From Thioalkalivibrio sp. (GTDB taxonomy: Bacteria; Pseudomonadota; Gammaproteobacteria; Ectothiorhodospirales; Ectothiorhodospiraceae), in contig NZ_REBW01000144.1 in assembly GCF_007692535.1 (NCBI RefSeq), forward strand, positions 1 to 46,439: a DNA stretch of 46,439 bases. Direction: 5' to 3'. Made by a program: the position numbers and the translations under genes. The notes beneath the pieces are model-generated. The model saw only the letters and a program-made list of their open reading frames with translations. It had not been told where the DNA came from and did not search any database. This document shows positions 92 to 31,971 of this stretch, piece after piece; position 1 is the stretch's first letter, and every line of letters starts with the position of its first letter.

Positions 92-3000
92 ATGTTCGAA
101 GAGGCGAAATTCCGGTCAAAGGTGAAGGCCGTGCTGTTCGATATGGACGGGGTGGTGACGGACACCGCGCGCGCGCACGCCGCTGCATGGAAACGCCTGT
201 TCGACGAATTTCTCGAGGCGCGCGCAAACCGCCTCGGCGAGGAGTTTCGACCGTTCGATCCCCGCGATGACTATCGCCGGTTTGTCGACGGAAAACCGCG
301 CGCCGACGGCATCAGGAGCTTTCTCGCTTCGCGGGGTATCGAACTGCCGGCCGGCAGCAGGGACGACGGCCCGGATGACGACACCGTTGCTGGTCTTGGC
401 AATCGCAAGAACCGGTATTTCCGCGCCTGGCTGGACGAAAATCGTGTCGAAGCTTACCCGGGAACCCTGAGGCTGCTCGAGGCCCTGCGCGATGGGGGTG
501 TGGCGACGGCTGTGTTCTCCTCGAGCCGCAATGCCGAGGCGGTGCTGGAAAGCGCCGCCTTGCTCGATCGCTTCGCTGCCCGGGTCGATGGTAACGATCT
601 GCTCCGGTTGGACATCCCCGGCAAGCCGGACCCTGCGATGTTGCTGGAGGCGGCCCGGCAACTGGAGGTCGCGCCGGCGGAGTGTGCGGTCTTCGAGGAC
701 GCCGGCATCGGTATCGAGGCCGGTGTCGAGGGCGGGTTCCACCCGGTGATCGGTGTCGCCCGCAACGATCACGGCGATCGATTGAAGGAGGCAGGTGCCG
801 ACCTCGTGATTCGCGATCTGGCCCAACTTCGCTTCACCCCCGCGGACGGTCTGACTCTGCGCACGCTCGACAATCTGCCCTCGGCCCTGGATCGTGAGAA
901 CGACATTCGCAGCCGTCTGAAAACCAGCGATCCCGCGGTGTTTCTGGATTACGACGGCACTCTGACACCGATCGTCGATGACCACACGAAGGCGCTCCTG
1001 GCCGACGATATGCGGGCGACGGTGGCGGCTCTTGCCCGACGTTGCACGGTGGTGATCGTGAGCGGCCGTGATCTGGCGAAACTGCGTGAGCTGGTTGGGC
1101 TGGATTCCGTGTGGTTTGCGGGCAGCCATGGTTTCGAGATCGTCGGCCCAGAAGGTGCTTCCCGGGGCCTGGAGAAAGGCGAAGAATTTCTCCCGGAACT
1201 CGATGAACTGGAGCGCGGCTTGAAGGATCAACTGGCCGGCATCGACGGGCATTCGCTGGAACGGAAGAAGTTCTCGATCGCGGTGCACTATCGCGGTGTC
1301 GCGTCCACGGACGTGGAGTCCCTGAAGTCCATCGTTGACAAGGTGTTGCAGGAACACCCGAGCCTGCGCCTGGGCCGTGGGAAGAAGGTCCTGGAGATCG
1401 GCCCCGATATCCATTGGAACAAGGGCGAAGCGGTGCGCTGGGTGCTGCAGGAACTGGAGGCAGACAACCCGGACCTGGTTCCGGTCTACGTCGGCGACGA
1501 CATCACCGATGAGGATGCGTTTCAGGCGCTTGCGGGGCAGGGGATCTGCATTGCCGTGCGCCACGACGAAGCCCGGGCGACCGCAGCCGACTACGCCGTG
1601 GATGACACGCTGGGTGTGAAACGCCTTCTCCAGTCATTGACCGGCGTCATTGCCGCGCGGGAGCAGGGTGCCGCTGCGATGCGCGAAACGGGTGCATGGT
1701 CGCTGACCTACTCGGGTTACCGGCCGACACAGGAAGGTCTGCGCGAGGCCCTGTGCACGCTCGGTAACGGCTACTGCGCCACCCGAGGCGCCTCGCCCGA
1801 TGCGCGGGCGGACGACGTGCATTACCCGGGGACGTATCTGGCTGGCGGCTACAATCGGCTGATCAGCGAAGTGGCCGGACGGAAGGTCGAAAACGAGGAC
1901 CTGGTCAATCTGCCGAACTGGCTGCCGCTGACCTTCCGCATCGATGACGGTGACTGGTTCCGGCTCGACGATGTGGAAATTCTGGCGCTGGACCAGGAAC
2001 TCGATGTCGTCCACGGCCTGCTGCACCGTAGCCTGCGCTTTCGCGACGCCGAAGGTCGCACGACCCACTGGCGGGAACAGCGACTGGTCAGCATGGACAC
2101 CCCTCACATTGCCGGTCTTTGCGTGGAGCTCACGGCGGAGGACTGGTCAGGTCGGATGACAGTGCGTTCGTCCCTCGACGGCAACGTGGTCAATGACGGC
2201 GTCGCCCGCTACCGCGGTCTGGCGAACCGTCATCTCGAGGTTCTGGCCGCGGAGCATCGGGGCGAGGATACGATCTTTCTTCATTCGCGCACCAACCAAT
2301 CCGTGCTCGGGATCGCCCAGGCGGCACGGACCCGCGTGTATCGGGGCGGCACCGAGATGGCCGCAGAGCGTCGGACGATCAGCGAAGAAGCGGGCATCGC
2401 CCAGGAGATTGCCTTTGCCCTGGCCGAGGGCGAAGCGGCCCGGGTGGAGAAGATCGTCGCATTGTACTCGTCGCGCGACTGGGCGATCTCCGAACCGGGG
2501 CTGGAGGCATTGCGGGGACTCGGCCGCACCGGTCGCTTCGATGTGATGCGTGCGCGGCACGAAAGAGCCTGGGCACACCTGTGGAACGAATGCGACATCG
2601 CCCTCGACGATGACGGGGCGCCAACGACGGAACTCAAGCTGCGCGTACACATCTTCCACCTGCTGCAGACGGCGTCGCGGCACTCGGTCGATCTCGACAC
2701 CGGTGTACCCGCACGCGGCTGGCACGGCGAGGCCTACCGCGGTCACATCTTCTGGGACGAACTGTTCATCTTTCCCTTCCTGAGCCTGCGCATGCCCACG
2801 CTGACCCGTGCCCTGTTGCGTTACCGCCATCGTCGCCTCGGCGAGGCAAGGCAGGCGGCTGCGGATGCCGGCTACCGGGGAGCCATGTATCCCTGGCAAA
2901 GCGGCAGTGATGGCCGGGAAGAGACCCAGCGGCTGCACCTCAACCCGAAGTCGGGCCGCTGGCTCCCGGACACCTCGCACCGGCAACGGCACATCAACTC

Positions 3001-4177
3001 GGCGATTGCCTACAACGTCTGGCAGTACTACCAGACCTCCGATGACCAGGAGTTCATGCACTTCTACGGCGCGGAGATGCTGCTGGAGATCGCACGCTTC
3101 TGGGCCAGTGCCTCGGTGTACAACCCGGGACTGGATCGCTACGAGATCAGGGGTGTGATGGGACCGGACGAATATCACACCGCCTATCCGGATACCGACC
3201 CGGAGGCTGCTGGGGGTGTGGACAACAACGCCTACACCAATGTGATGGCGGCCTGGGTGCTGACACGGGCACGGGACGTCATCGACCTGCTTCCCGAGAT
3301 GCGCTGGCGGCATCTGCGCGAGCGCATGGAACTGAGCGACGAAGAACTCGAGCTCTGGTACGACATCAGCCGGAAGCTCCGCGTGCCTATCCAGGACGAT
3401 GGCATCATCAGCCAGTTCGAGGGCTATGAGGATCTCGAAGAGTTCGACTGGGACGGCTATCGCAAGAAGTACGGCGACATCCATCGCCTGGACCGCATCC
3501 TCGAGGCCGAGGACGACACGCCGAACCGGTACAAGGTCTCGAAGCAGGCAGACGTGCTGATGCTGTTCTTTCTCTTCTCGGCGGAGGAGTTGGCGATGCT
3601 CTTCGAGCAGCTCGGCTACCCGTTCGATCCAGAGACGATTCCGCGGAATGTCGAATACTATCTTGCGCGCACCTCGCATGGCTCAACCCTGAGCCAGGTC
3701 GTGCATTCGTGGGTATTGGCGCGATCGGACCGTTCGCATTCGTGGAATCTCTTCCAAAGGGTCCTGGACAGCGATATCGCCGACATTCAGGGTGGCACGA
3801 CGCCCGAGGGCATTCATGTCGGTGCGATGGCCGGTAGCATCGACCTGGTCCAGCGTTGCTACCTGGGCATCGGGATGCGCGGCAATGTGCTGCACTTCGA
3901 TCCGGCATTCCCTTCCGAGCTGCATTGCGTCAAGGTACGGTTGCACTATCGCAACCAGACGCTGGAAGTGGAAGCCAACCACGATACGCTGCAGATCCGC
4001 AGCGGGGCATACACAACGAGGGCGATCACCGTTGCGTATCGCGGGCATTATCGTGAGATGGCACCCGGCGACAGCTGCCAGTTCCGTTTGCTCAAGCCGG
4101 AAGAGCGTGTGCGTGACGAAAATCGTCGCGCAGGAGAGCACTCGGAGGCACCGGCTCTTGAGCAGCCATCGCCATGA
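92..4177 (+). CDS. Three-domain fusion: beta-phosphoglucomutase-like HAD, trehalose-6-phosphate phosphatase, GH65 disaccharide phosphorylase
   Basis: The 1361-residue protein has three catalytic units. Residues ~10-250 are a beta-PGM-like HAD domain with 'FDMDGVVTDTA' (nucleophile and acid/base Asp), 'GKPDP' (Lys) and 'FEDAG'. Residues ~275-530 are an OtsB-type phosphatase with 'FLDYDGTLTPI' near 284 and 'GDDITDEDAF' near 468. Residues ~560-1340 are GH65, with 'GHIFWDELF', the catalytic acid in 'GPDEYH' near 1024, 'KQAD' near 1151 and the phosphate-binding 'HGST' near 1195. All signature residues are present. The architecture matches that known for mycobacterial OtsB1 (Rv2006). Inferred chemistry: T6P to trehalose, phosphorolysis to beta-glucose-1-P, then glucose-6-P. 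The GH65 substrate (trehalose, T6P, maltose or kojibiose) cannot be read from motifs. The start follows 'ggag'. It heads the glycogen/trehalose operon. Confidence 0.93.
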   Translation: MFEEAKFRSKVKAVLFDMDGVVTDTARAHAAAWKRLFDEFLEARANRLGEEFRPFDPRDDYRRFVDGKPRADGIRSFLASRGIELPAGSRDDGPDDDTVAGLGNRKNRYFRAWLDENRVEAYPGTLRLLEALRDGGVATAVFSSSRNAEAVLESAALLDRFAARVDGNDLLRLDIPGKPDPAMLLEAARQLEVAPAECAVFEDAGIGIEAGVEGGFHPVIGVARNDHGDRLKEAGADLVIRDLAQLRFTPADGLTLRTLDNLPSALDRENDIRSRLKTSDPAVFLDYDGTLTPIVDDHTKALLADDMRATVAALARRCTVVIVSGRDLAKLRELVGLDSVWFAGSHGFEIVGPEGASRGLEKGEEFLPELDELERGLKDQLAGIDGHSLERKKFSIAVHYRGVASTDVESLKSIVDKVLQEHPSLRLGRGKKVLEIGPDIHWNKGEAVRWVLQELEADNPDLVPVYVGDDITDEDAFQALAGQGICIAVRHDEARATAADYAVDDTLGVKRLLQSLTGVIAAREQGAAAMRETGAWSLTYSGYRPTQEGLREALCTLGNGYCATRGASPDARADDVHYPGTYLAGGYNRLISEVAGRKVENEDLVNLPNWLPLTFRIDDGDWFRLDDVEILALDQELDVVHGLLHRSLRFRDAEGRTTHWREQRLVSMDTPHIAGLCVELTAEDWSGRMTVRSSLDGNVVNDGVARYRGLANRHLEVLAAEHRGEDTIFLHSRTNQSVLGIAQAARTRVYRGGTEMAAERRTISEEAGIAQEIAFALAEGEAARVEKIVALYSSRDWAISEPGLEALRGLGRTGRFDVMRARHERAWAHLWNECDIALDDDGAPTTELKLRVHIFHLLQTASRHSVDLDTGVPARGWHGEAYRGHIFWDELFIFPFLSLRMPTLTRALLRYRHRRLGEARQAAADAGYRGAMYPWQSGSDGREETQRLHLNPKSGRWLPDTSHRQRHINSAIAYNVWQYYQTSDDQEFMHFYGAEMLLEIARFWASASVYNPGLDRYEIRGVMGPDEYHTAYPDTDPEAAGGVDNNAYTNVMAAWVLTRARDVIDLLPEMRWRHLRERMELSDEELELWYDISRKLRVPIQDDGIISQFEGYEDLEEFDWDGYRKKYGDIHRLDRILEAEDDTPNRYKVSKQADVLMLFFLFSAEELAMLFEQLGYPFDPETIPRNVEYYLARTSHGSTLSQVVHSWVLARSDRSHSWNLFQRVLDSDIADIQGGTTPEGIHVGAMAGSIDLVQRCYLGIGMRGNVLHFDPAFPSELHCVKVRLHYRNQTLEVEANHDTLQIRSGAYTTRAITVAYRGHYREMAPGDSCQFRLLKPEERVRDENRRAGEHSEAPALEQPSP

Positions 4178-4246: not shown

Positions 4247-4564
4247 ATGGAAAATGGAGTGACTGTGATCGTCTGGCTGGTCTGGCTGGCCATTTTTCTG
4301 CTTGCCATACCGCTGGTTTTGCGAATCCGCCATCCTGAACAGAGGGCATTCGCTGCCTATCTGATCTTCGTCAGCATCTTTACCGTCGTGGCTGGCGTGC
4401 TGTTCTGGCTGTTGTCCTGGCTGGCCCTTGCCTTGGGGCTTGCGCCGATGCTGGAACGGGTCATTCCCGCGATCGTATTTCTGCTGCTGATCTTTGTCCC
4501 CGCGTTCGCACTCGCTTTCTGGCAGGCGCGCAAGCCGCGGTGGAGGAAAGCGCCGCCCCCTTGA
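4247..4564 (+). CDS. Small integral membrane protein, unknown function
   Basis: This 105-residue protein is mostly hydrophobic, with three likely membrane segments (roughly residues 4-26, 36-62 and 71-95) and a basic tail '[11 protein letters not shown]'. I chose the ATG at 4247 rather than the 4220 start because 'gaggaagagg' lies at the right distance upstream and the nine-residue extension is charged and unconserved-looking. I do not recognise the family. It lies between the trehalose fusion gene and glgB in the same orientation, so it is probably co-transcribed, but nothing in it points to a role in glycan metabolism. Confidence 0.75.
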
Positions 4565-4682: not shown

Positions 4683-6611
4683 ATGAAAAACCCTGCGCAA
4701 TCCGTCAAGCATGACGTCCCGATGCTGACCGAGCACGATGTCTATCTGTTCAAACAGGGCCGGCACACCAGGCTTTACGAAAAGCTGGGTGCCCATGTTC
4801 GGGAGGTCGGCGGCGTCGCGGGCGTGGGCTTCGGGGTATGGGCGCCCAATGCCAGGGAGGTTTCGGTCATCGGTGATTTCAACCAATGGCGTGCCGGCAG
4901 CCATCCGCTGCAGATCCGCGAGGACGACTCCGGGATCTGGGAGGGCTTCATTCCGGACCTCATGCCAGGGACTCAGTACAAATTCCATATCGCGTCCCGG
5001 CTCGAGGATTACGCGGCGGACAAGGGGGACCCCTTCGCGTTCTCCTGGGAGGAGCCCCCGGCGACTGCGTGCCGGGTCCGGGAACTGGATTACTCGTGGG
5101 ACGATGCCGCATGGATGGAACGGCGCCATCGGGCCAACGGCCTGGATGCCCCCTGGTCCGTCTACGAGATGCATCCGGGCTCCTGGCGGCGAGTGGCGGA
5201 GGAGGGCAATCGGGTGCCCACGTACCGTGAATTGGCGGAATGGCTGCCCGCCTATCTGGGCGAACTTGGCTACACCCACGTGGAATTGATGCCAATCACC
5301 GAACATCCCTTCTACGGGTCATGGGGTTACCAGACCACCGGCTATTTCGCGCCGACCGCCCGTTATGGAACGCCGCAGGACTTCATGCACCTGGTGGACC
5401 GCCTGCATCAGTCGGGAATAGGGGTGATCGTCGACTGGGTGCCTTCGCATTTTCCGGACGACGAACACGGGCTGCGGTATTTCGACGGCACCCACCTCTT
5501 CGAACACGCTGATCCCAAGAGCGGCTTCCACCCCGAGTGGCAGAGCTACATCTTCAACTACGGGCGTCACGAGGTTCGGTCCTTTCTGCTCAGCAGTGCG
5601 CTGTTCTGGCTGAAGCAGTACCACCTGGATGGGCTGCGCGTGGACGCGGTGGCCTCGATGCTCTACCTCGACTACGGCCGGCAGGAGGGCGAATGGATAC
5701 CCAACGAGCACGGCGGCAACGAAAACCTGGCGGCGGTGGATTTTCTGCGCGACCTGAACGAGGCGGTCTACCGGGATCTGCCCGGCACCCAGACCATCGC
5801 CGAGGAGTCCACTGCGTGGCCCATGGTCTCGAGACCAACGTACCTGGGCGGCCTGGGTTTCGGCATGAAATGGAACATGGGCTGGATGCACGACACGCTG
5901 GCCTATTTTGCGAACGACCCGCTGTACCGCAAGTATCATCACGACCAGCTGACCTTCAGCCTGGCCTACGCCTTCAACGAGAATTTCATGCTCGCCCTCT
6001 CCCACGACGAGGTGGTGCACGGCAAGGGCTCCCTGATCAACAAGATGCCGGGCGACGACTGGCAGAAGTTCGCCAACCTGCGGGCATTGTTCGGATACAT
6101 GTACGGACACCCGGGGAAGAAGCTGACGTTCATGGGTGACGAGTTCGGCCAGTGGCGCGAGTGGAGCCACGATCGCGGGTTGGACTGGGAACTGCTGGAG
6201 CAGCCAGCGCATCGTGGCCTCCGGCATTGGGTCGGCGATCTGAATCACTTCTACCGGAACCAGCCCGCGCTGTTCGAGCAGGACTTCGTCGCGGCCGGCT
6301 TCGAGTGGATCGACCGGCAGGACGTCGAGGAGAGCACCCTGAGCTTCCTGCGGAAGGCCAGAAACCCGGACGACATGATTCTCGTGATCTGCAACCTGAC
6401 GCCGGTGCCGCGTGACAACTACCGCATTGGGGTCCCGAGAGGCGGGTGGTGGCAGGAGATGCTGAACAGCGATGCCCAGACCTACGGCGGCAGCGGGCGC
6501 GGCAATCGGGGCGGCGTGGAGAGCGCGCCGGTGGGCGCGCACGGCCACTACCATTCGCTGGTCCTCGACCTGCCGCCGCTGGCGGTGCTGTTTCTGAAGC
6601 CGGGAGGTTGA
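4683..6611 (+). CDS. glgB: 1,4-alpha-glucan branching enzyme
   Basis: GlgB cuts alpha-1,4 chains and rejoins them through alpha-1,6 links. In this context it branches the polymer made by GlgE. The protein has an N-terminal CBM48-like region ('[19 protein letters not shown]') and a GH13 barrel with '[10 protein letters not shown]', '[15 protein letters not shown]' (nucleophile Asp ~321), 'AEEST' (acid/base Glu ~374) and '[10 protein letters not shown]' (Asp ~442), the diagnostic GlgB set. At 642 residues it is of the shorter form without an extra N-terminal module. The ORF track's 4494 start adds an implausible Arg/Ser/Pro-rich leader. ATG 4683 or, ten codons upstream, ATG 4653 are both possible, and neither has a strong Shine-Dalgarno. 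glgE follows after 6 nt. Confidence 0.96.
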
Positions 6612-6617
6612 GAGCGC

Positions 6618-8615
6618 ATGGCACGCATCTTTCCCGAAGAAGGCAGGCAGCGGGTGATGATCGAAGCGGTCAGCCCGCAGGTGGATGGCGGACGCTTTCC
6701 CATCAAGCGAACGGTGGGTGAATCGGTGGTGGTCGAGGCCCGTGCTTTCGCCGATGGACATGATCGTCTCCGGTGTCTGCTGCGGCATCGACGGGAGGAT
6801 GGCGCGCTGTGGCACGAGACGCCGATGCTGCCGATGATCAACGATCGCTGGCGCGCCGAGTTCACGGTTCCGGATCTGGGCCGCTATCTCTATACCGTGA
6901 CCGGCTGGGTCGATGGCTTCCTCTCCTGGCTCCACGATCTGGAACGTCGCACCGAGCCGGAGGATATACGCGTGGCCCTCGTGATGGGCGCGGAACTGGT
7001 GGCTCGGGCGGGTGACCGTGCGGTCGGCGATGATGCTGAAACCCTGGTCCGTCTGGCCGAAGCGCTGCGCTCGGAAGATGATCTGCAGACACGCGTTGCG
7101 GTGGCCATGAGCACCGAGTTGGGTGATTTGATGGAGCGCTATCCCGACCGCAGCCTGGCCAGCGTCGACGAGCGCGAGCTGGTGGTGACGGTGGAGCCGG
7201 AACGGGCCCGTTTCAGCGCCTGGTACGAGGTCTTTCCCCGCTCCTGCAGCATGACCCCAGGAGTCCATGGGACCTTCAGGGATTGCGAGAAGTGGCTTCC
7301 GTACATTGCCGGGATGGGTTTTGACGTCCTCTACCTTCCGCCGATCCACCCCATCGGGCGCAGCAGACGCAAGGGACCCAACAACGCGCTCACAGCGGAC
7401 GCCGATGACCCGGGGAGTCCCTGGGCGATTGGCTCCGCGGAGGGTGGACATCTCAGCGTTCATCCGGAATTGGGAACGCTGGAAGACTTCCGCAGCCTCG
7501 TCGCCGGCGCACGCGACCATGGTCTGGAGGTCGCCCTCGACATTGCCTTTCAGTGTGCGCCCGACCACCCCTATGTGGCGGAGCATCCGGCGTGGTTCCG
7601 CCACCGACCCGATGGCAGCGTGCAGTACGCGGAGAATCCACCGAAGAAATACCAGGACATCTATCCCTTCGATTTCGAGACCGCCGACTGGCAGGGTCTT
7701 TGGACCGAGCTCGAGGGCATCTTCCGGTTCTGGATCGAGCAGGGCGTGCAGATTTTCCGGGTGGACAATCCTCACACCAAGAGCTTCGCGTTCTGGGAGT
7801 GGGTCATCGCCGAAATCAAGCGGGATTTTCCCGGGACCATCTTCCTGGCCGAAGCATTCGCGCGTCCCGCCGTGCTGCACGGGCTTGCCAAGCGCGGCTT
7901 CAGCCAGTCCTACAACTACTTCCCGTGGCGCAATACCAAGCAGGAACTGACCGCGTATTTCACCGAACTCACCCGAGGCGAGGGGAGGGAATACCTGCGG
8001 CCCAATCTCTGGCCCGCCACGCCGGACATCCTGCCCGAATACCTGCAGTTCGGAGGCCGGCCTGCGTTCATGATCCGCGCGACGCTGGCGGCGACCCTGG
8101 GCGCGAGTTACGGCATTTACGGCCCCGCCTTCGAGCTGATCGAGAACAGGCCCCGATGGCCGGGAACCGAAGAATATCTCGATTCCGAGAAATACCAGAT
8201 CAGGCACTGGGATCTCAGGCGGCCGGACAGCCTCAGAGACTACCTCGCACGCCTGAACCGCATCCGTCGCGAGAATCCCGCGTTGCAGTACGACGGAAAC
8301 CTGCGCTTCCACGTAGTGGACAACGACGAAATCCTCTGTTTCAGCAAGAGGACGGACGACGGAGTCAATGTCGTGCTGGTGGTGGTCAACCTCGATCCGG
8401 TGCATGTGCAGTCGGGATACGTGCAGCTCCCGGTCGAGGAATTCGGCCTGGATCCGGGGCATCCCTACCAGGTCCACGACTTGCTGAGCAACTCCCGGCA
8501 TCTGTGGCACGGAACGCGCAACTACGTAGCGCTCGATCCGCAGGCCGGTCCGGCGCACATCTTCCGTCTGCGACGCCGGCTGCGGTCCGAGCACGACTTC
8601 GACTATTACCTGTAA
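6618..8615 (+). CDS. glgE: Alpha-1,4-glucan:maltose-1-phosphate maltosyltransferase (GH13_3)
   Basis: GlgE extends alpha-1,4-glucan with maltosyl units from maltose-1-phosphate. The 665-residue protein has the family N-terminal domain, then a GH13 barrel with 'LPPIHPIGRSRRKGPNN', 'DIAFQCAPDHPYV', 'NPPKKYQDIYP', 'FRVDNPHTKSFAFWEW' (nucleophile Asp ~383) and 'FLAEAFARP' (acid/base Glu ~412). The 29-residue spacing of the catalytic pair equals that reported for Streptomyces GlgE1 (D394/E423). 'gggagg', at the glgB stop, serves as the ribosome site. Its donor would be produced by the maltokinase domain of the next gene, 12 nt downstream, and its product branched by GlgB upstream. That is the standard GlgE-pathway grouping. 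Confidence 0.97.
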   Translation: MARIFPEEGRQRVMIEAVSPQVDGGRFPIKRTVGESVVVEARAFADGHDRLRCLLRHRREDGALWHETPMLPMINDRWRAEFTVPDLGRYLYTVTGWVDGFLSWLHDLERRTEPEDIRVALVMGAELVARAGDRAVGDDAETLVRLAEALRSEDDLQTRVAVAMSTELGDLMERYPDRSLASVDERELVVTVEPERARFSAWYEVFPRSCSMTPGVHGTFRDCEKWLPYIAGMGFDVLYLPPIHPIGRSRRKGPNNALTADADDPGSPWAIGSAEGGHLSVHPELGTLEDFRSLVAGARDHGLEVALDIAFQCAPDHPYVAEHPAWFRHRPDGSVQYAENPPKKYQDIYPFDFETADWQGLWTELEGIFRFWIEQGVQIFRVDNPHTKSFAFWEWVIAEIKRDFPGTIFLAEAFARPAVLHGLAKRGFSQSYNYFPWRNTKQELTAYFTELTRGEGREYLRPNLWPATPDILPEYLQFGGRPAFMIRATLAATLGASYGIYGPAFELIENRPRWPGTEEYLDSEKYQIRHWDLRRPDSLRDYLARLNRIRRENPALQYDGNLRFHVVDNDEILCFSKRTDDGVNVVLVVVNLDPVHVQSGYVQLPVEEFGLDPGHPYQVHDLLSNSRHLWHGTRNYVALDPQAGPAHIFRLRRRLRSEHDFDYYL

Positions 8616-8627
8616 CAAGGGGGCGGT

Positions 8628-11959
<3,332 letters not shown>

Positions 11960-11963
<4 letters not shown>

Positions 11964-12028
11964 GGCTGCACAGCACCGAATGGGGCACGTGGTTGCGGCC
12001 GTTGTCTTTCTGCGCGGTTCTTGCATGA
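11960..12028 (+). CDS. Possible 22-codon leader ORF coupling treS-mak to malQ
   Basis: An ATG at 11960 overlaps the treS-mak stop as ATGA and is preceded by a G-run ('cgggggggcg') that could bind the ribosome. It reads 22 codons ('MRLHSTEWGTWL..') to a TGA at 12026-12028, which overlaps the likely malQ ATG at 12025, again as ATGA. malQ itself has no convincing Shine-Dalgarno, so stop-start reinitiation through this mini-ORF is a reasonable reading. No peptide family is recognised. It could simply be chance. The call rests on junction geometry, not conservation. Confidence 0.3.
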
Positions 12029-14238
12029 GCCACCCGGAACTCCTCGATCGATTGTCGGAGCGCTACCACATAGCGCCCGAGTATCGCGATATCTGGGGCA
12101 ACCGCCAGCAGGTCTCCGAAGAAACCCAGCGCGCCCTGCTGGGTGTGATGGGTGTGGCTACAGACAGCGACCAACACATGCAGCAGGCCCTGGAGCGGGC
12201 CGAGGCCGAGGATTGGGGGCGTCCCCTGCCACCGGTACACGTGGCACGGGAGGGCGAGGGCTGCATCCGCCTGGACATCACGGTGCGCGCGGAAAGTGCC
12301 GGTCACTGGCACCGCTGGACGCTGACGGAAGAGGACGGTGGTCGCCGGGAGGGTCGGTTCCGGCCTTCGGATCTCGAGCAGGAGGGCCAGCGGATGCTGG
12401 ACGGCGAGGTCCGGGAGCGGCGCATACTCTCTCTGCCGGACGACCGGCCGGGCGGCTACCACCGCCTCGAACTCCAGGACCTCGAGATGCCTGGCGAGGG
12501 GATTTCGTCCATGTCGCTGATCGTGGTCCCGGCGGATTGTTACCGGCCGCAGGCGGTGTCGGGAGGGCAGCGGGTATGGGGGCTCAATATCCCGCTGTAC
12601 GCGCTGCGCTCGAGCCGGAACTGGGGCATCGGCGACTTCACGGACCTGATCCGGGTGCTGGAATTCGCGGCGCAGGCCGGGGTGGACCTGGTCGGCCTGA
12701 ATCCGCTGCATGCCCTGTTTCCGCACAATCCCTCCCACGCGAGTCCCTACAGTCCTTCAAGCCGGCAGTTCCTGAATGTGCTGTACCTGGACGTGGAGGC
12801 GTTGCCCGAATTCGCCGAGTGCGACGCGGCACAGCATCAGGTGCGGGACCGGGTCTTCCAGCAGCGGCTGGATCGGCTCCGGGGGTCTGAACTGGTCGAC
12901 TATCCCGGGGTTGCCGGGGCGAAGATGACGGTGCTGGAGACCCTGTACGGGCACTTTCAAAAGAAACATCTGGACCGTGGCGATGAACGTGCCGAGGCCT
13001 TTGCCCGGTTCCGGCGGTCACGGGGTGATGCGCTGCGTCTGCATGCGCTGTACGAGGCGATTCAGGAATCCCTGCATCGGGCGGATCCCTCGGTCTGGGG
13101 CTGGCCTGCATGGCCGGAGCCCTATCGACATCCGGAGTCCGAGGCCGTTGCGGCATTCGCGACCGAACACGCCGAACGAACGGGGTTTTACGAATACCTG
13201 CAATGGCAGGCCCATGCCCAGCTCAGGAGGGCCGGCCATCGTGCCTTCGAGCTGGGTCTTGCGCTGGGACTGTACCAGGACATTGCCGTCAGTGTGGATG
13301 TGGGCGGCGCGGAGACCTGGGCGAATCAGGAACTGTATGTACTCGAGGGCCGGATCGGTTCCCCGCCGGATGACTTCAACCTGGACGGCCAGGACTGGGG
13401 GCTTCCGCCCTGGAATCCCGAAATGCTGCGGGATTGTGGGTATGCGCCGTTCATCAAGACCCTGCGCGAGAACATGAGCACCGCCGGGGTTGTGCGCCTC
13501 GACCATGTGATGAGTCTGATGCGGCTCTTCTGGGTGCCGGCGGGGATGTCTCCGCGCGAAGGTGGCTACGTTTCGTATCCGTTTCAGGATCTGCTGGGCA
13601 TTCTCGCGCTGGAGAGTCACCGCAACCGCTGCCTCGTCGTCGGCGAGGATCTGGGCACGGTGCCCGACGAGGTGCGCGAGGCGTTGCGGCCGATGGGCGT
13701 GCTTTCTTACCGGCTGCTCTATTTCGAGAAAGCGGACGACGGCAATTTCAGAACGCCCGCGGATTTCGCCACGCAGGCCCTGATCGCCACCAGCACGCAT
13801 GACCTGCCCACGCTTTCCGGTTACTGGGAGGGTCTGGATCTGGAGTTGCGCGATCGTCTGCACCTTTTCCCAACCGCGAAACACCGCGAAGACCAGATCA
13901 TCGGGCGCGCGGAGGACCGGGCCCGTCTGCTCGTGGCGCTGGAAAAGGAGGGTCTGCTGCCCGCAGGCCTGAGCGTGCAGGCGGTTCCCGAGGGGGAAAT
14001 GACGGTGGACCTCGCGGTGAGTATCCACCGCTTCCTTGCCCGCACCCCCGCGATGGTGATGATGGCTCAGATGGAGGACGTACTCGGGCAGCGCGAACAG
14101 ATCAACCTTCCCGGAACCACCGACGAGCGTCCGAACTGGCGCCACAAGTTGAGGCTGGACCTGGAGCAGTGGGAACGGGAGCCGCGGGTCCTCGCCATCC
14201 TGAATGCGCTGAGGGAGGAGAGGGCTGTTATCACGTGA
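12025..14238 (+). CDS. malQ: 4-alpha-glucanotransferase (amylomaltase, GH77)
   Basis: MalQ transfers alpha-1,4-glucan segments between maltodextrins and glucose, recycling short chains. The 737-residue protein has an N-terminal extension (~residues 1-150, 'YRDIWGNRQQVSEETQRALL') as in long MalQ proteins, then GH77 motifs: 'NPSHASPYSPSSRQFLN', 'DIAVSVDVGGAETWANQ', 'VVRLDHVMSLMRLFWVP' (nucleophile Asp ~493), 'VVGEDLGTVP' (Glu ~541) and 'STHDLPT' (Asp ~593). The start at 12025 gives the standard N-terminus. The ORF track's 11980 start adds a hydrophobic 15-residue stub. The gene ends in a 4-nt overlap with the next one. Confidence 0.95.
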   Translation: MSHPELLDRLSERYHIAPEYRDIWGNRQQVSEETQRALLGVMGVATDSDQHMQQALERAEAEDWGRPLPPVHVAREGEGCIRLDITVRAESAGHWHRWTLTEEDGGRREGRFRPSDLEQEGQRMLDGEVRERRILSLPDDRPGGYHRLELQDLEMPGEGISSMSLIVVPADCYRPQAVSGGQRVWGLNIPLYALRSSRNWGIGDFTDLIRVLEFAAQAGVDLVGLNPLHALFPHNPSHASPYSPSSRQFLNVLYLDVEALPEFAECDAAQHQVRDRVFQQRLDRLRGSELVDYPGVAGAKMTVLETLYGHFQKKHLDRGDERAEAFARFRRSRGDALRLHALYEAIQESLHRADPSVWGWPAWPEPYRHPESEAVAAFATEHAERTGFYEYLQWQAHAQLRRAGHRAFELGLALGLYQDIAVSVDVGGAETWANQELYVLEGRIGSPPDDFNLDGQDWGLPPWNPEMLRDCGYAPFIKTLRENMSTAGVVRLDHVMSLMRLFWVPAGMSPREGGYVSYPFQDLLGILALESHRNRCLVVGEDLGTVPDEVREALRPMGVLSYRLLYFEKADDGNFRTPADFATQALIATSTHDLPTLSGYWEGLDLELRDRLHLFPTAKHREDQIIGRAEDRARLLVALEKEGLLPAGLSVQAVPEGEMTVDLAVSIHRFLARTPAMVMMAQMEDVLGQREQINLPGTTDERPNWRHKLRLDLEQWEREPRVLAILNALREERAVIT

Positions 14239-16205
14239 CGATGACCCAGAACATCGCCTCCAACCCCTTGCCTGATCCCGCGATCACGGAGGGGCTGCGC
14301 TTGCTCGGGAAACGGCGCTTGGCACTGGCCATCCATGACCGCTGCTTTCCGGGGCTGTCAGCCGAGGATGTCGGGCGGGGCTCGCCTTACAGTCGTGGCG
14401 CCAGGCAATTCGTCGCCTTTGTACGCAGCCTGGGTTTCGACACGATCCAGCTGGGGCCCATGGGGCAGACGCCCCGCGATGACCCTTCTCCCTACAACGG
14501 AACAGTGTTTTCCCGAAACGTCCTGAACCTCGATCTGGCAAGCCTGACGGGGGAAGGCGGCTCCAGTGATGTTTCCGGCGGCTTGCTGCATGCGGACACC
14601 CTCGAACGTCTGGTCGGGGAATGCCCGTGTGACGACGGCGCCCGCAGCGTGCATGGCTACGCTTTCGATGCCTGTCACATGGCCCTGGACGCGATCCATC
14701 AAAATTTCAAGGCGGCCCGCGCCCGAGGCGATCCCGGCGCCCTGAAACTCGATGCGGAGCTGGACCATTTCGCCGGACGCAATGGAGACTGGCTCGCACC
14801 CGACGCGCTGTACCACGCGCTGTCGGGGCATCATGGAGAACGGCATCACCGGCATTGGCCGGTAACCGATGCCGTCTGCCCCGATGCTGCACTGTACCGG
14901 CACATCGGCCAGCGACCGGATCCATGCACCTCGCGCCGGAGCGCGCTTTTCGATACATATCGCGATGAACTCGAACGCTATCGGCTGGGACAGTTCCTCG
15001 TCCACCGCCAGCACGCGGCGTTCCACGCCGAGACGAAGGGTCTGGGTTTGCGCCTTTACGGCGATCTCCAGGTGGGGCTCTCGGCATGCGATGAATGGAG
15101 CCGTGGCGGTATGCACCTGTCGGGTTACCGCATGGGTGCGCCACCCAGCCGCACCAATCGCGACGGACAACCCTGGGGCTACGGGGTGTATGACCCGGAC
15201 CAGTGCCTCGATGGTGACGGTGCGCCGGGGCCGGTGCTGCGTTTCATGCTCGCGCGGATCGAAAAGATGTTGGGAGAGTTCGATGGGCTGCGCATCGATC
15301 ACCCTCATGGTCTCGTGTGCCCGTGGGTATACCGTGGCGACGACCCCGACCCCAGTCATGCGGTGCAGCATGGTGCGCGGCTGTTCTCGTCGCCGCATCT
15401 CGCCGACCATCCGGACCTTGGTCGTTTTGCCATCGCCGGGGTGGAGCAGCTGAACCAGGCCGTTCCCCGCTATGCGGACGAATGGGTGCGGTGGCTGCGA
15501 CCGGATCAGGTCGGGCGCTACGCCCTGCTGCTGGACACGGTCGTGAGCGTGGTGCGGGAGCATGGGGGATCGAGCGAAGATATTCCCTGCGAGGTGTTGA
15601 GCACATTGCCTTATCCCGTGGCGAGTGCCATCAGGCGCCAGGGTCTGGGACGGTTTCGGGTGACGCAGAAGGCGGATCTCTTCAACCGTGATGACGTCTA
15701 CCGCAGTGAGAACGCCGAGGCCCGGGACTGGATCATGGTGGGCACGCACGACACGCCCCCGATCTGGCACCTGGCCCGCGAGTGGGTGGAGGAGGGTGAG
15801 CGGGCCCGGCAGGAGGCGGACTATCTTGCCGCGCGACTCGTCCCCGCCGGGGAACGTGAGGCATTCGCGCGCGAGTTGGCCGGGAATCGCAACAAACTGG
15901 TGCATGCCAAATTGGCGGATGTGTTCGCGAGTCCCGCAGAGCAGGTCATGGTGTTCTTCGCCGATCTCCTGGGTCAGGAACAGACATACAACCGGGCCGG
16001 CTTCGTCGATCTGGAAAACTGGACCCTGCGCGTGCCCCGCGACTATGCCACTTCGTTTCCGCGCGCGGTGGCGCGGGGCGACGCCCTGAACCTGCATTGC
16101 GTGCTGGCGCTGGCGTTGCGCGCGCGAGGCGATGATTTCGCGCGGCTCCACGGCGATCTGATCGGGCGTCTGCGCGAACAATCGGGGTGGTGGTGTGGTG
16201 AGTGA
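14235..16205 (+). CDS. Divergent second GH77 4-alpha-glucanotransferase-like protein
   Basis: This 656-residue protein looks like a remote MalQ homologue. It keeps 'LRLYGDLQVGLSACDEWS', 'FDGLRIDHPHGLV' (Asp355, nucleophile position), 'IPCEVLSTLP' (Glu453, in place of the usual 'EDLG..P' acid/base region) and 'MVGTHDTPPIW' (Asp506). The catalytic triad is therefore retained although the surrounding motifs differ, as does the N-terminal 'PSPYNGTVFSRNVLNLD', which corresponds to the usual 'SPY..SSR..NP' stretch. The GTG at 14235 overlaps the malQ stop (GTGA) and has 'ggaggagagg' upstream. ATG 14241 is the alternative. The activity is probably a glucan transferase, but acceptor or donor specificity may differ from MalQ. 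Confidence 0.85.
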   Translation: MTMTQNIASNPLPDPAITEGLRLLGKRRLALAIHDRCFPGLSAEDVGRGSPYSRGARQFVAFVRSLGFDTIQLGPMGQTPRDDPSPYNGTVFSRNVLNLDLASLTGEGGSSDVSGGLLHADTLERLVGECPCDDGARSVHGYAFDACHMALDAIHQNFKAARARGDPGALKLDAELDHFAGRNGDWLAPDALYHALSGHHGERHHRHWPVTDAVCPDAALYRHIGQRPDPCTSRRSALFDTYRDELERYRLGQFLVHRQHAAFHAETKGLGLRLYGDLQVGLSACDEWSRGGMHLSGYRMGAPPSRTNRDGQPWGYGVYDPDQCLDGDGAPGPVLRFMLARIEKMLGEFDGLRIDHPHGLVCPWVYRGDDPDPSHAVQHGARLFSSPHLADHPDLGRFAIAGVEQLNQAVPRYADEWVRWLRPDQVGRYALLLDTVVSVVREHGGSSEDIPCEVLSTLPYPVASAIRRQGLGRFRVTQKADLFNRDDVYRSENAEARDWIMVGTHDTPPIWHLAREWVEEGERARQEADYLAARLVPAGEREAFARELAGNRNKLVHAKLADVFASPAEQVMVFFADLLGQEQTYNRAGFVDLENWTLRVPRDYATSFPRAVARGDALNLHCVLALALRARGDDFARLHGDLIGRLREQSGWWCGE

Positions 16206-25446: not shown

Positions 25447-27186
25447 CTACCGGCCGACACCCAGGACGGCGACCGATTCACCGGGAAGCACGAGGGTGTC
25501 GCCCTGCCAGTCGATGCCGGGGCCGGACCGCAACAGCAGCTGCTGCCCGCGGGCCTCAGGACACTCCACCGATTGCGGCTCGGGGTGAAGGTTGCAGGCG
25601 ATCGTCACTTCAGGGCGCACCAGGATCAGCCAGCGACGCTGTTCGTCAAACCGGACGTTAACCTCCTGCAGGCGGTCGTCGGCGAAGGCGGGGTCGCTGC
25701 GGCGCAACCCGATGAGTGCTCGGTGCCAATCCAGGATTTCCGCATGCGGTCCCTGCAAGCATTCATCCCAGTCGAGCCGGGAGCGTTCGTAGGTTTCCCG
25801 CGACTGGGGGTCGGGAATGCTCTCGGGATCCCAGCCGAAGGCCGCGAATTCCTCCCGACGGCCTTCGCGCACGGCAGCCGCCAGTTCCGGGTCGTGGTGA
25901 TCGGTGAAGTACAGGAACGGGCTCCTCGCGCCCCATTCCTCGCCCTGAAACAACATGGGTACGAACGGAGACGTCAGGACCAGCGCCGCGCCGACCTTGA
26001 GTAACCCTGGGGAGAGGAGGTGGCTGCTGCGCTCGCCAGTGGCGCGATTGCCGATCTGGTCGTGATTCTGCAGGCAGCCGACGAAGCGTCGGCCCGTCAA
26101 TCCGTTCGCCGGACGGCCATGGGTACGCCGCCGGTAGCGGGAGTAGATTCCGCCGTATGCGAATCCGCGCATCAGGACCCGCGCGAGCGGTTCCAGTTGG
26201 CCGAAGTCTGCGTAGTAGCCATCGGCTTCCCCGGTCAGGGCGGCATGCAGGGCGTGATGGAAGTCCTCGTTCCACTGCGCATCCAGGCCGTAGCCGCCGA
26301 CCTCGACCGGGCGTACCAGCCGCGGATCGTTCAGGTCACTCTCGGCGATCAGCACCAGGGGGCGCCCGGTACCAGCTTCGAGCCTTCGCACCTCGTCGGA
26401 CAGGGCCTCGAGGAAATGTATCGCCGAGGTGTCGACGATGGCGTGGACCGCATCGATGCGGAGCCCGTCGATATGATAGTCCCGCAGCCACATCAGGGCA
26501 TTGTCGATGAAAAAACGACGAACCTCGTCGCTGTAAGCACGGTCCAGGTTGACCGCGTCGCCCCAGGGCGTGCTATAGGCGTCGGTGAAGTAGGGGCCGA
26601 AACGGGCGAGATAGTTGCCGTCGGGGCCGAGGTGGTTGTAGACCACGTCGAGCAGCACGGCCAACCCGCGGCGATGGCAGGCATCGACGAGTCGCTTCAG
26701 CGCATCCGGCCCGCCGTAGGCGTGGTGGGGTGCGAACAGATCGACGCCATCGTAACCCCAGCCCTGCTCCCCGGGAAATTCCTGTACCGGCATCAGTTCC
26801 AGGTGCGTGATGCCCAGCTTGACCAGGTGGTCCAGCCTGTCGATCACCGCGTCGAAGCTGCCCTCGGCAGTGAAGGTGCCGACGTGAATTTCGATGATCA
26901 CGGCCGCGGAAAGGGGCGGCGCTCGCCAACCCGCATCGCTCCATTCGAAGGTGTCGTGTTCCACCCAGCGCGAGGGTCCGTGTACACCCAAGGGTTGCCA
27001 TGGCGAGCGCGGATCCGGGAAGGGCCCCTCTCCGTCGACATGGAACGCGTAGTCCACTCCATGCGCCAGGGCACCGGATTCGGCCGTCCACCAGTCGTCC
27101 TCCCGGCGCAGCATCGGCGTTTGGGACCCGGCACATTCGAGCACGACTTTCTCAGCGCTTGGTGCCCAGACCTTCAACAGGGTCAC
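25447..27186 (-). CDS. treZ: Malto-oligosyltrehalose trehalohydrolase
   Basis: TreZ releases free trehalose from the maltooligosyl-trehalose made by TreY. The 579-residue protein starts '[17 protein letters not shown]' (CBM48-like) and has 'DVVYNHLGPDGNYL', 'GLRIDAVHAI' (nucleophile Asp245), 'LIAESDLND' (acid/base Glu282) and 'LQNHDQIGNR' (Asp376). The first two lie at nearly the numbering reported for Sulfolobus TreZ (D252/E283). The ORF track extends 300 residues upstream into treY. The correct start is the GTG at 27186, which overlaps the treY stop as GTGA with 'gtggaggag' just before it. It is the third gene of a glgX-treY-treZ operon. Confidence 0.95.
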   Translation of the reverse strand: MTLLKVWAPSAEKVVLECAGSQTPMLRREDDWWTAESGALAHGVDYAFHVDGEGPFPDPRSPWQPLGVHGPSRWVEHDTFEWSDAGWRAPPLSAAVIIEIHVGTFTAEGSFDAVIDRLDHLVKLGITHLELMPVQEFPGEQGWGYDGVDLFAPHHAYGGPDALKRLVDACHRRGLAVLLDVVYNHLGPDGNYLARFGPYFTDAYSTPWGDAVNLDRAYSDEVRRFFIDNALMWLRDYHIDGLRIDAVHAIVDTSAIHFLEALSDEVRRLEAGTGRPLVLIAESDLNDPRLVRPVEVGGYGLDAQWNEDFHHALHAALTGEADGYYADFGQLEPLARVLMRGFAYGGIYSRYRRRTHGRPANGLTGRRFVGCLQNHDQIGNRATGERSSHLLSPGLLKVGAALVLTSPFVPMLFQGEEWGARSPFLYFTDHHDPELAAAVREGRREEFAAFGWDPESIPDPQSRETYERSRLDWDECLQGPHAEILDWHRALIGLRRSDPAFADDRLQEVNVRFDEQRRWLILVRPEVTIACNLHPEPQSVECPEARGQQLLLRSGPGIDWQGDTLVLPGESVAVLGVGR

Positions 27187-29840
27187 GGTTTCTCCTCCAC
27201 TCTTTCCAGCAGCGCCACGGGAAACGGCGCAAGGATCTCGGCGACCGATTGGTCCCCACCCTCGAGCAAAGCGCCGGAGAGGCGGTTGTTCCATCGCCCC
27301 GGCGGTAGCGGCAGCACGGTATCCTTCCAGTCGTCGTCCAGCCCCAGGACCAGCCGGGGTACCAGGACCAGCACGTCGCCACCGCGCAGGTAGGCAACCG
27401 CATGTGCGGCTTTTTCCCCTCGGGGCGCGATCGGCTCGTAGGCGCCTTCGGGACCGAATGCCTCCCGTCGCTTGCGGCGCAGCGCCAGCGCCTCGCGGAG
27501 GACCCATAACTTCGGAAGTCCCTCGTCCGCGCGCGCCAGGATCTGCGCGGGCGAGGGCGTGTCGAGTGCCGAGAGCAGGAGGCGCCGCCGTTCGAAATCC
27601 ACCGGCCTGCGATTGTCCGGATCCACGAGACTCAGATCCCAGAGCTCCATTCCCTGGTAGATGTCGGGAACACCAGGGGCAGTGCACTTGATCAGCGTCT
27701 GTGCGAGGCTGTTGACGCGGCCGGCGGAGACCAGCGGCGCCACAAAGGTTTCCATCTTCTCCCTGAATTCCGCATCGCTCAGCAGGCGGCTCGCGAACTC
27801 CTGTACCGCCCGTTCGTAGTCGGGGTTCTGTTGCGTCCAGCTGGTGTGGTGCTTGGCCTCGCGCACCGCCTTTTCCAGGTAAGCGGTCACGCGCTCGGTC
27901 TCGATGGGCCAGGTGCCCATCAGCGTCTGATACAGCAGGTATTCGGTCGCGGGATCGGGCCAGTCGCCCGAGCGATGGCGAGCATTGTGGTGAATCCAGT
28001 CCCGCACCGCCCGGCCCCAGAGCTGGGGAATCTCCGACAGCAGCAGCAGCCGTGCCCGTACGTCTTCGCTGCGCTTGGTGTCGTGCGTGGAGCTCGCGAG
28101 CATGGCCGTGGGATGCCGGCGACAGGAGTGCAGGCATGCCTGGTGAAAGTCGTCCACGGACATCCCGAATCGTTCGGGATCGCCTCCGACCTCGTTCAGC
28201 GCCGCCAGGCGATGAAACCGGTAAAACGCGGTGTCCTCCACGCCCTTGGCCATGGCCGGGCCTGTCAGCTGCTGAAAGCGCAGCGCGAATTCCGTCTCCA
28301 GGCCACCTTCCACACGCAGTAACAGGAGTGCCTGAAGGAAGTCCAGCAACTCGTCATCCAATTGCGACGATTGGCTCCGGGCCTGATCGATGGCCGTGGA
28401 GACATAGCCCGCGTCTGCTTCGGTAACGTCGCTGCCACTCGCCACGTAGGTCCGGTACACGGGGAAGCAAGTCGCGACCTCGAGGAGTGCCTGGTAGAGC
28501 TGTTCGCGCGAGTAGTCGCGGTGCCGACGGTGCCTTTCGCAGATCGTGACGAACAGCGAGGCCAGCCGTTGCAGTTCGCTGCCCAGCAGTTCGCGAAGGA
28601 CCTGGTGCTTGCTCTCGAGAACCAAGGCATGAAAATCCGCCGAATCACCCGAGATCTCTTCGTAAAGCCAGGTCAACGGCAACTCGCCCGATGGGTCGAC
28701 GAAGAGTCCCTGCAAGCGGTTCAGAAAGTCATAACCCGTACTGCCCGCAATGGACCAGTCCTCCCGCAGTTGCTCGCCCGTTTCGAGGATCTTCTCCGCA
28801 ACGATCCAGGCACCGGGGCAGGCCTCGCGCAGACGACGGAAATACTGGGCCGGGTCGCGTAGCCCATCGGGGTGATCGACGCGAAGGCCCTGTACCGTTC
28901 CGTCCCGGACCCAGCGGATCGGCAGGGCGTGGATGGCCTCGAAAACCTCGCGCCGTTCCACACGTAATCCCGCCAGGTCATTGATATCGAAAAACCTTCG
29001 ATAGCCGAGATCCTGGGCAGCGGTCTTCCACCAGGCGAGCCGGTAGTTCTGCCTGTCGATCAATGCATCCAGGGCATCGGCGTCGCCGTTGATCCAACCC
29101 AATTCGCTCTCGACCGCGGCACGGGCCTCGGCGTCCTTCCGGAACGATTCATCCAGGAGCCGGTGGATCACCTGCTGATCGCGTTGGCGTCTTTCCATCA
29201 AGTCAAGTGCGGTGACCTGGGGGCGTGGCAGGCGTGCGCAGGACTCCGCCAGGAAGCCGAGCAGTTCCAGACCGCTGCGGCGGTAAACGCGCTGCAGAAG
29301 GGTGCTGAGTGAGGAAGGGTCGATGGGGAAACGGTGTTCGTGATAGTGAAGAGTGAACAGGCCCTCGTTAAAACGGAGTTGCAGATCGCCCGCTTCAAGC
29401 ACCCGGCCGTAGTGGTCGCCCAGCACCGGCAGCAGGACCTTGTTCGGCCAGCGTTCCTCCGACGATTCCCAGTCCACGTCGAAGTAGAGCGCATAACGGC
29501 TGGAGGGACCGTTCTCGAGGACGTCCCACCACCAGGGATTCTGATCTCCGGCGATGGCCATATGATTGGGCACGATGTCCAGCACCTGACCCATCCCGGC
29601 GTTGTCCAGCGCGGCGGAGAGTCGCTGGCGTGCCTCTTCTCCACCCAGTTCCCGGTTCACGCGGGAGGGATCGACCACATCGTAGCCATGGGTGCTGCCG
29701 TGCGCCGCTTGCAGGAACGGGGAGAGGTAGACGTGACTGATGCCGAGTTGCGCGAGATAGGGGACGACGTCGGATGCGTCGTCCAGCGTGAAGCCGGGGT
29801 GGAGTTGCAGCCGGTAGGTGGCCAGCGGTTCAGCAGGCAC
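27183..29840 (-). CDS. treY: Malto-oligosyltrehalose synthase
   Basis: TreY converts the reducing-end alpha-1,4 bond of a linear glucan to the alpha,alpha-1,1 bond of trehalose. The 885-residue protein has '[16 protein letters not shown]', '[22 protein letters not shown]', '[20 protein letters not shown]', '[13 protein letters not shown]' (nucleophile Asp322), 'WIVAEKILE' (Glu349) and '[15 protein letters not shown]', all diagnostic. I chose the GTG at 29840 because the protein then begins just before the conserved 'ATYRLQ', and because it overlaps the glgX end by only 11 nt. The 29909 ATG would add a non-conserved stretch overlapping glgX by 80 nt. The Shine-Dalgarno is weak, which suggests coupling to glgX. 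Confidence 0.94.
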
Positions 29841-31971
29841 AGCGGAGCACCACGATGGAACGGGGCTGGACGCGTAGGGTGCTGCCAGCCTGCATTTTCT
29901 CCTCGTCATCGACCCAACCGGAATTCGTATCGAGTTCCTGGATCCACTGCTCCGCCCACTCGGCGCCGGGAAGCGCGAAGTCGAGCGCTTCGTGATGAGC
30001 GTTGAAGATGAGATAGAAGCCGTCGTCGAGTACGCGCTCGCCCTCGGGATCGGGAGTGGTGATCGAGCGCCCGTTGATGAAGACCCCTAGCGACTGGGCA
30101 GAGCCCTCGCCCCAGTGTTCTTCCGCCATCTGTACGCCATCGGGAGTGAACCAGGCGATGTCCTTGATATCATCCCCATGGATCGCGCGGCCCTGGAACC
30201 AGCGCCGGCGCCGAAACACCGGATGGTCCAGGCGCAATCGGATCAGGCGGCGCGTGAATGCCAGGAGATCTTCGTCCACGTTTTCCCAGTCGTACCAGGA
30301 GATCTCGTTATCCTGGCAGTAGACGTTGTTGTTGCCCTCCTGGGTGCGGCCGATTTCGTCTCCTCCGAGCAGCATGGGGACGCCCTGGGACAGCACCAGC
30401 GTGACCAGGAAATTGCGCTGCTGGCGCTGCCGCAGCGCGTTGATCTCCGGGTCGTCCGTCGGCCCCTCGGCGCCGCAGTTCCAGGAACGGTTGTGGCTCT
30501 CGCCGTCCCGATTGTCCTCACCGTTGGCCTCGTTGTGCTTCTCGTTGTAGGAGACGAGGTCGCGCAGGGTGAACCCGTCATGCGCGGTGACGAAGTTGAT
30601 GCTCGCGTGCGGCCAGCGTCCGGACAATTCGTACAGATCGGAACTGCCGGTGAGCCGGTAGGCGAATTCCCCGAGGGTCTGGTCCTCGCCGCGCCAGAAA
30701 TCGCGGACGGTATCGCGGTACTTGCCGTTCCACTCCGACCACAGGGGCGGAAAGTTGCCGACCTGGTAGCCGCCTTCTCCGAGGTCCCAGGGTTCCGCGA
30801 TCAGCTTCACCTGGCTGATGACCGGGTCCTGCTGGATGATGTCGAAGAACGCCGAGAGCCGGTCGACCTCGTGGAGTTCGCGGGCCAGCGTGGACGCCAG
30901 ATCGAAGCGAAAACCGTCGACATGCATCTCCAGCACCCAATAGCGCAGCGAGTCCATGATCAGTTGCAGCACGTGCGGGTGCCGCATGTTCAGGCTGTTG
31001 CCGGTCCCCGTGTAGTCCATGTAGTGGCGGGGATTCTCGTTGACCAAACGATAGTACGCTGCATTGTCGATTCCCTTCAGGCTCAGCATGGGGCCCAGGT
31101 GGTTGCCCTCGCTGGTGTGGTTGTAGACGACGTCCAGGATCACCTCGAGTCCGGCCCGATGCAGGGCCTTGACCATGGTCTTGAATTCCCGCACCTGGCC
31201 GCCATCCGACCCGTCGGCCGCGTATTCGTTGTGAGGGGCGAGGTAGGCGATGCTGCTGTATCCCCAGTAGTTGCGCAGGCCGCGTTCTTCGAGAAACGCG
31301 TAGTGGATGAACTGGTGGACCGGCATCAGTTCGACCGCGGTGATGCCGAGATCGGTCAGGTATTCGATCATGGCCGGATGCGCGAGGCCGGCGTAGGTGC
31401 CGCGCAGCTCCTCCGGAATTGCCGGGTGCTGGACGGTCAGCCCCTTCACATGGGTCTCGTAAATGATCGTCTCGTGCCAGGGGGTATGCGGATGCCGGTC
31501 GTGTTCCCAGTCGAATTCAGGATCAATGACCACCGACTTTGGAACGAACGGAGCACTGTCTGCGTCGTTGAAGGAGTCCTCCGGATCATCGAAATGATGC
31601 GGGAATACCGCTTCGTCCCATTCAACGGCGCCGTCCACCGCCTTTGCATAGGGATCGAGCAGAAGCTTCGCCGGGTTGCAGCGGTGGCCCTGCTCGGGAT
31701 CCCACGGGCCGTGCACACGGTACCCGTACCGCTGACCCACACCGACGCCGGGCAGGTAGCCGTGCCAGCAAAGAGCAGTGACCTCGGTGAGGTCGTGAGA
31801 TGCGGTCTGCCTGCCCTTGGCGTCGAAGAGACAGAGTTCCACCCGTTCCGCCACCTCGGAGAACAGTGAGAAGTTGGTGCCCTTGCCATCGAAGCTGGCA
31901 CCGAGGGGGTAGGGCTCTCCGGGCAATACGGCTGGGCTGTCGGGCGGACGGGTCGTGGATTTCCGTGACAC
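29830..31971 (-). CDS. glgX: Glycogen debranching enzyme (GlgX/TreX type)
   Basis: This enzyme hydrolyses alpha-1,6 branches to give linear maltodextrins for TreY. The 713-residue protein has an N-terminal CBM48 region ('[18 protein letters not shown]'), then '[17 protein letters not shown]', '[13 protein letters not shown]' (nucleophile Asp357), '[16 protein letters not shown]' (Glu393) and '[20 protein letters not shown]'. Start choice: the GTG at 31971 has 'aaggagg' 4 nt upstream and gives '[19 protein letters not shown]'. The ORF track's 32142 start adds 57 residues of low plausibility. Because it sits upstream of treY and treZ, it is more likely a TreX-like supplier of linear chains than a general glycogen mobiliser. 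Confidence 0.95.

Follow-up and report, generated by a model that had tools for sequence, protein, structure and literature searches.

In the OtsA-OtsB pathway, trehalose 6-phosphate (T6P) is made from a nucleotide sugar by a GT20 enzyme and dephosphorylated by OtsB to trehalose, and the GlgE pathway (TreS-Mak-GlgE-GlgB) elsewhere draws its trehalose from OtsA. The GH65 phosphorylases and beta-phosphoglucomutase (bPGM) are reversible enzymes; the T6P phosphorylase of Lactococcus has a catabolic role, acting in PTS-linked catabolism beside a separate bPGM. Mycobacterial OtsB1 (Rv2006, 1327 aa) is a dormancy-regulon protein. Its function is unknown, and no enzyme data are available for it (PMC11046441, PMC12090744). 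In one review, T6P phosphorylase appears solely as a degrader of T6P (PMC12125463), and another presents its use in synthesis as engineered (PMC13121652).

The DNA analysed here (the window) is a whole contig of 46,439 nucleotides from Thioalkalivibrio sp., and the neighbourhood described below covers nothing 5' of its base 1. Close to that end, an ATG-initiated ORF of 1361 codons, with zero internal stops and a GGAGA a few bases 5' of the ATG, encodes a protein in which three domains follow one another:

92 to 4177, plus strand: bPGM-OtsB-GH65 fusion gene, three-domain, 1361 aa
116 to 841, plus strand: bPGM-like HAD domain, aa 9-250 (Pfam/NCBIfam HAD, TIGR02009)
932 to 1642, plus strand: T6P phosphatase (OtsB) domain, aa 281-517 (PF02358, TIGR00685)
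1685 to 4045, plus strand: GH65 domain of predicted T6P-phosphorylase type, aa 532-1318 (fingerprint, PDB match, clade)

Pfam and NCBIfam together placed the HAD domain at aa 11-216 (Pfam by itself at 11-214), and Pfam placed Trehalose_PPase (PF02358) at aa 284-505 (E 3e-52) and the N, m and C parts of GH65, all present, at aa 539-1318 (E 4e-69, 4e-134 and 2e-10). The order bPGM-OtsB-GH65 in one chain (Pfam) agrees with the OtsB1-like architecture claimed in an earlier, sequence-only reading of this DNA; the M. tuberculosis protein, compared by description alone, is alike in architecture and length, and its host has OtsA and OtsB2, unlike the Thioalkalivibrio genome, which lacks OtsA. The three-domain combination is not a chance one, because fused or adjacent copies recur in many phyla.

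That reading had also recognised three active sites with signature catalytic residues in the chain, and residue conservation confirmed all of them. The HAD domain contains every bPGM-type motif (DxDGVxT, H, R, S, K, ED), and its retained catalytic residues (D17, D19, T25, H29, R70, S145, K178, E202 and D203) are near-invariant across 93 relatives. It passed the cut-off of TIGR02009 (PGMB-YQAB subfamily, NCBIfam; 164.8 against 153), scored below that of the stricter bPGM equivalog TIGR01990 (106 against 189) and matched PDB 8h5s, 'Beta-phosphoglucomutase', with 204 bits (phmmer). The OtsB domain keeps D286, D288, S324, K444, D469, D470, D473 and E474, with near-invariant catalytic residues and the OtsB motifs in 73 of 73 relatives, and it exceeded the cut-off of the T6P phosphatase equivalog TIGR00685 (169.8 against 68 bits). 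A single-sequence structure prediction of the HAD-OtsB half was discarded (pLDDT 35), and the predicted GH65 model (pLDDT 73) was used for fold matching only. Separately, PDB 5gvx (M. tuberculosis OtsB2) aligned to aa 186-511 of the fusion, spanning the end of the bPGM domain plus OtsB; judging from the alignment, the extra N-terminal domain of that OtsB2 may be a bPGM relic.

De Beul et al. described six GH65 specificity positions, at which T6P phosphorylase reads DQGQDE, trehalose phosphorylase TRIGPP, kojibiose phosphorylase EEAPxx and maltose phosphorylase KV[MF]NES, and their assayed Caldithrix DQGQDE enzyme made T6P from beta-glucose-1-phosphate (beta-G1P) and glucose-6-phosphate (G6P) (PMC8537180). 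We read the fingerprint at CsKP positions 64/392/394/402/416/585. The window GH65 gave D603, Q936, G938, Q946, D960 and E1140, an exact T6P-phosphorylase match, and PDB 9lb6 gave DQGQDK at the same positions; as an internal control, second GH65 genes in two other loci (L105, L109) read EEAP. The comparison of specificity residues suggested in the sequence-only reading thus came out as T6P-phosphorylase type and not as trehalose phosphorylase (TRIGPP), and kojibiose (EEAPxx) and maltose phosphorylase were likewise rejected on the fingerprint. The catalytic acid E1027 and the phosphate site K1151/Q1152/H1196/S1198/T1199 form the set E-K-Q-H-S-T, as in T6P phosphorylase, and K-Q-H-S-T is shared with 9lb6. 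In GH65 hydrolases, the Lys, the His and both Ser of the phosphate site are replaced (PMC8626586); the window GH65 retains its phosphate-site residues, and a hydrolase was therefore rejected.

The best PDB match of the window GH65 by sequence was 9lb6 from Weissella ceti (484 bits, against 315 for kojibiose phosphorylase), which was also the closest solved structure by fold. Its depositors label it a T6P hydrolase or phosphatase; we take it to be the T6P phosphorylase of Feng 2025. In the GH65 tree, which contained no trehalose phosphorylase sequence, the window GH65, 9lb6 and a Latilactobacillus enzyme formed one clade (100/100) apart from other specificities, and 16 polar positions, including R915, R966 and R1132, were fixed in the T6P-phosphorylase clade and not elsewhere. 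On the strength of this conservation, R966 and R1132 are predicted to contribute to binding of the 6-phosphate. Fingerprint, acid, phosphate site, fold and clade are common to the window GH65 and the GH65 subgroup 22 T6P phosphorylases (Lactococcus TrePP, Caldithrix CaGP, Weissella 9lb6), and the window GH65 differs from the Lactococcus enzyme in being fused to bPGM and OtsB. Its residues and kinship suggest that the domain is very probably a T6P phosphorylase, and free trehalose is not likely to be its substrate. With the DQGQDE fingerprint and 9lb6 as nearest solved relative, all three sites would thus converge on T6P.

OtsA/GT20 was not found in the window genome (99.8% complete), and sugar-PTS EIIC was found neither there nor in 19 other module genomes. 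OtsB therefore lacks a known T6P supply unless the GH65 domain makes T6P in reverse. Since OtsB would have a known substrate supply only if GH65 made T6P, the net direction in this organism is rather more probably synthesis, and the earlier 'catabolic' label is doubtful. Against synthesis by the fusion, other trehalose and glycogen routes exist in the window genome, which carries TreY and GlgC; the fusion as its only trehalose source was rejected, TreY lying in the window. Among 274 genomes sampled from the class, strong OtsB (E <= 1e-20, a cut-off chosen after the table was seen, with the borderline G251, 2.7e-20 and with OtsA, counted in) was present in 32. All four OtsA-less genomes among them (the window genome G000, and G004, G069 and G242) carried the module, compared with 3 among the 28 in which OtsA was present (Fisher P = 0.00097, or 0.0044 when an 88%-complete genome is excluded). 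Below the cut-off, G008 (75% complete, partial match) and G051 (32 bits) had weak OtsB without OtsA and without the module. TreY, TreS and GlgC were also not found in G004 (97% complete), and the module is the sole trehalose candidate there among the enzymes searched.

We propose, leaning towards it with somewhat better than even confidence, that the fusion is a single-chain, nucleotide-sugar-independent trehalose synthase leading from G6P to trehalose. The bPGM domain would convert G6P to beta-G1P, the GH65 domain, working as a reverse T6P phosphorylase, would combine beta-G1P with a second G6P to give T6P and Pi, and the OtsB domain would turn T6P into trehalose and Pi in an irreversible step that pulls both reversible steps onward (net: 2 G6P + H2O -> trehalose + 2 Pi). 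A rough estimate from textbook values gave about -10 to -13 kJ/mol at millimolar G6P and turned unfavourable at low G6P or high trehalose. OtsB would dephosphorylate T6P just as in the OtsA-OtsB pathway, but a phosphorylase would take the place of GT20 in forming T6P, with beta-G1P and G6P as its substrates where GT20 uses a nucleotide sugar. According to the account of Taguchi 2020 given in PMC13121652, bPGM, T6P phosphorylase and maltose phosphorylase make T6P in vitro; as described there, that system resembles our proposal in running T6P phosphorylase synthetically with bPGM, but it is a designed cocktail of separate enzymes that starts from maltose and lacks OtsB.

The trehalose product would enter TreS-maltokinase-GlgE-GlgB glycogen synthesis or serve as a stress solute. 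A complete gene set for the GlgE pathway lies just downstream of the fusion, in these surroundings:

4247 to 4564, plus strand: unlisted, hydrophobic 105-aa membrane-protein ORF between the fusion and GlgB
4683 to 6611, plus strand: GlgB alpha-glucan branching enzyme (start revised from 4494 to ~4683)
6618 to 8615, plus strand: GlgE maltosyltransferase (PF11896, PF21702)
8628 to 11963, plus strand: TreS-maltokinase fusion, trehalose -> maltose -> maltose-1-phosphate (TIGR02456 and TIGR02457 over cut-off)
11980 to 14238, plus strand: MalQ 4-alpha-glucanotransferase (PF02446, TIGR00217)
14169 to 16205, plus strand: second, divergent GH77 gene overlapping the MalQ end (domain search)
27183 to 29909, minus strand: TreY, within a minus-strand set at 25447-32142

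The minus-strand set consists of TreY, a TreZ-like alpha-amylase/DUF3459 ORF and a GlgX/TreX-like CBM48/isoamylase gene. The claim that the fusion leads a GlgE-type operon held in part: GlgE-pathway genes follow on the same strand, but a gap of ~0.5 kb with the 105-aa ORF precedes GlgB and the window starts at the contig end. Terminator-like matches in the gap fall within that ORF, and a lead position is plausible. Here the fusion, and not OtsA, would provide the pathway with trehalose; we infer both this coupling to GlgE and the transfer of substrate between the domains.

All of the enzyme kinds are known, and OtsB1 provides a precedent for the architecture. Beyond this, we regard as evenly balanced the claim of a natural G6P-only trehalose route (bPGM, reverse T6P phosphorylase and OtsB), fused here and encoded by adjacent genes in many phyla, which, if coupled to GlgE, would permit glycogen formation without ADP- or UDP-glucose and would hint at a function for OtsB1. 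A search of openly readable literature found no bPGM/T6P phosphorylase/OtsB pathway and no natural T6P-phosphorylase synthesis route, and in the sources covered we found no assay of an enzyme of the OtsB-linked branch together with its OtsB partner. If true, the proposal would add a further natural trehalose route, widespread in bacteria, that dispenses with nucleotide sugars and spends less high-energy phosphate than the OtsA route. It would also account for OtsB genes in OtsA-less genomes, place proteins annotated 'trehalose-phosphatase' and 'GH65' in one pathway and open mycobacterial OtsB1 to a specific biochemical test.

The same GH65 type was present in 80 named loci from Pseudomonadota, Desulfobacterota, Nitrospirota, Bacteroidota, Actinomycetota, Campylobacterota and others. 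In 53 of these loci OtsB was fused to it or lay next to it, comprising 37 with HAD-OtsB then GH65, 6 fully fused, 9 with OtsB then GH65 and 1 truncated OtsB-GH65; this association favours the proposed synthesis. Among 41 OtsB-module genomes from named loci that were checked for GT20, 30 carry it (their completeness was not given), and the idea that the module always replaces OtsA was rejected on this count; where GT20 is present, the module may supplement OtsA or serve to remove T6P. GT20 in those genomes could supply T6P, and it adjoins the module at some loci (L034, L047, L072, L098 and L100), which, like the catabolic T6P phosphorylase/bPGM pair of Lactococcus, favours a branch-point or salvage role: GH65 would degrade T6P (T6P + Pi -> beta-G1P + G6P), bPGM would return beta-G1P to G6P and OtsB would offer an alternative exit, so that the fusion would set the split between trehalose and glycolysis. 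The window genome, however, has neither OtsA nor PTS EIIC as a known T6P supply, and two T6P sinks without a source in one chain make little sense in OtsA-less genomes; we consider this role unlikely.

Quite improbable, in our view, is that one domain is vestigial or has another substrate (e.g. OtsB on another sugar phosphate), the fusion being a two-enzyme or regulatory protein. Such decay is seen in an OtsB1-like Rhodococcus protein (L110), the N-terminal HAD of which is degenerate and capless, and in HAD-GH65 lineages that lost OtsB, but the three catalytic sets of the window protein are intact and near-invariant in relatives, and its OtsB domain lies over the T6P phosphatase equivalog cut-off. 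The order given in the sequence-only reading, T6P -> trehalose -> beta-G1P + glucose -> G6P with GH65 as trehalose phosphorylase, is highly improbable, because although all three domains look active and trehalose is available through TreY and TreS in the window genome, it needs trehalose phosphorolysis, while the fingerprint is DQGQDE and not TRIGPP, the nearest solved relative is the T6P enzyme 9lb6 and no T6P input is known.

In the tree, HAD-GH65 fusions without OtsB nest within the OtsB-bearing clade. GH65 of the T6P-phosphorylase type without adjacent OtsB was observed on a Nitrobacter plasmid (L116) and at L059, L060, L061, L063, L075, L037 and L049; these OtsB-less loci are mostly HAD-GH65 fusions, and the L049 and L059 genomes are also without GT20, which speaks against the proposed synthesis role. 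A HAD-IIB gene beside the Nitrobacter fusion was considered as a substitute OtsB and rejected, as a search next to other OtsB-less fusions gave no homologues. In Latilactobacillus, the Firmicute sister, pgmB adjoins the T6P phosphorylase gene and no OtsB lies beside it, which is likewise in line with the proposed synthesis in the OtsB-linked branch. The Rhodococcus OtsB1-like protein is encoded on the WAY2 plasmid (L110:5473-9531) among universal-stress, GAF, response-regulator and wax-ester-synthase genes, an arrangement that resembles a DosR-type dormancy locus. GH65 genes with the kojibiose-phosphorylase fingerprint were observed beside a HAD-OtsB gene (L105, 9657-12020, minus strand) and beside a T6P-phosphorylase fusion (L109, 15578-17956, minus strand).
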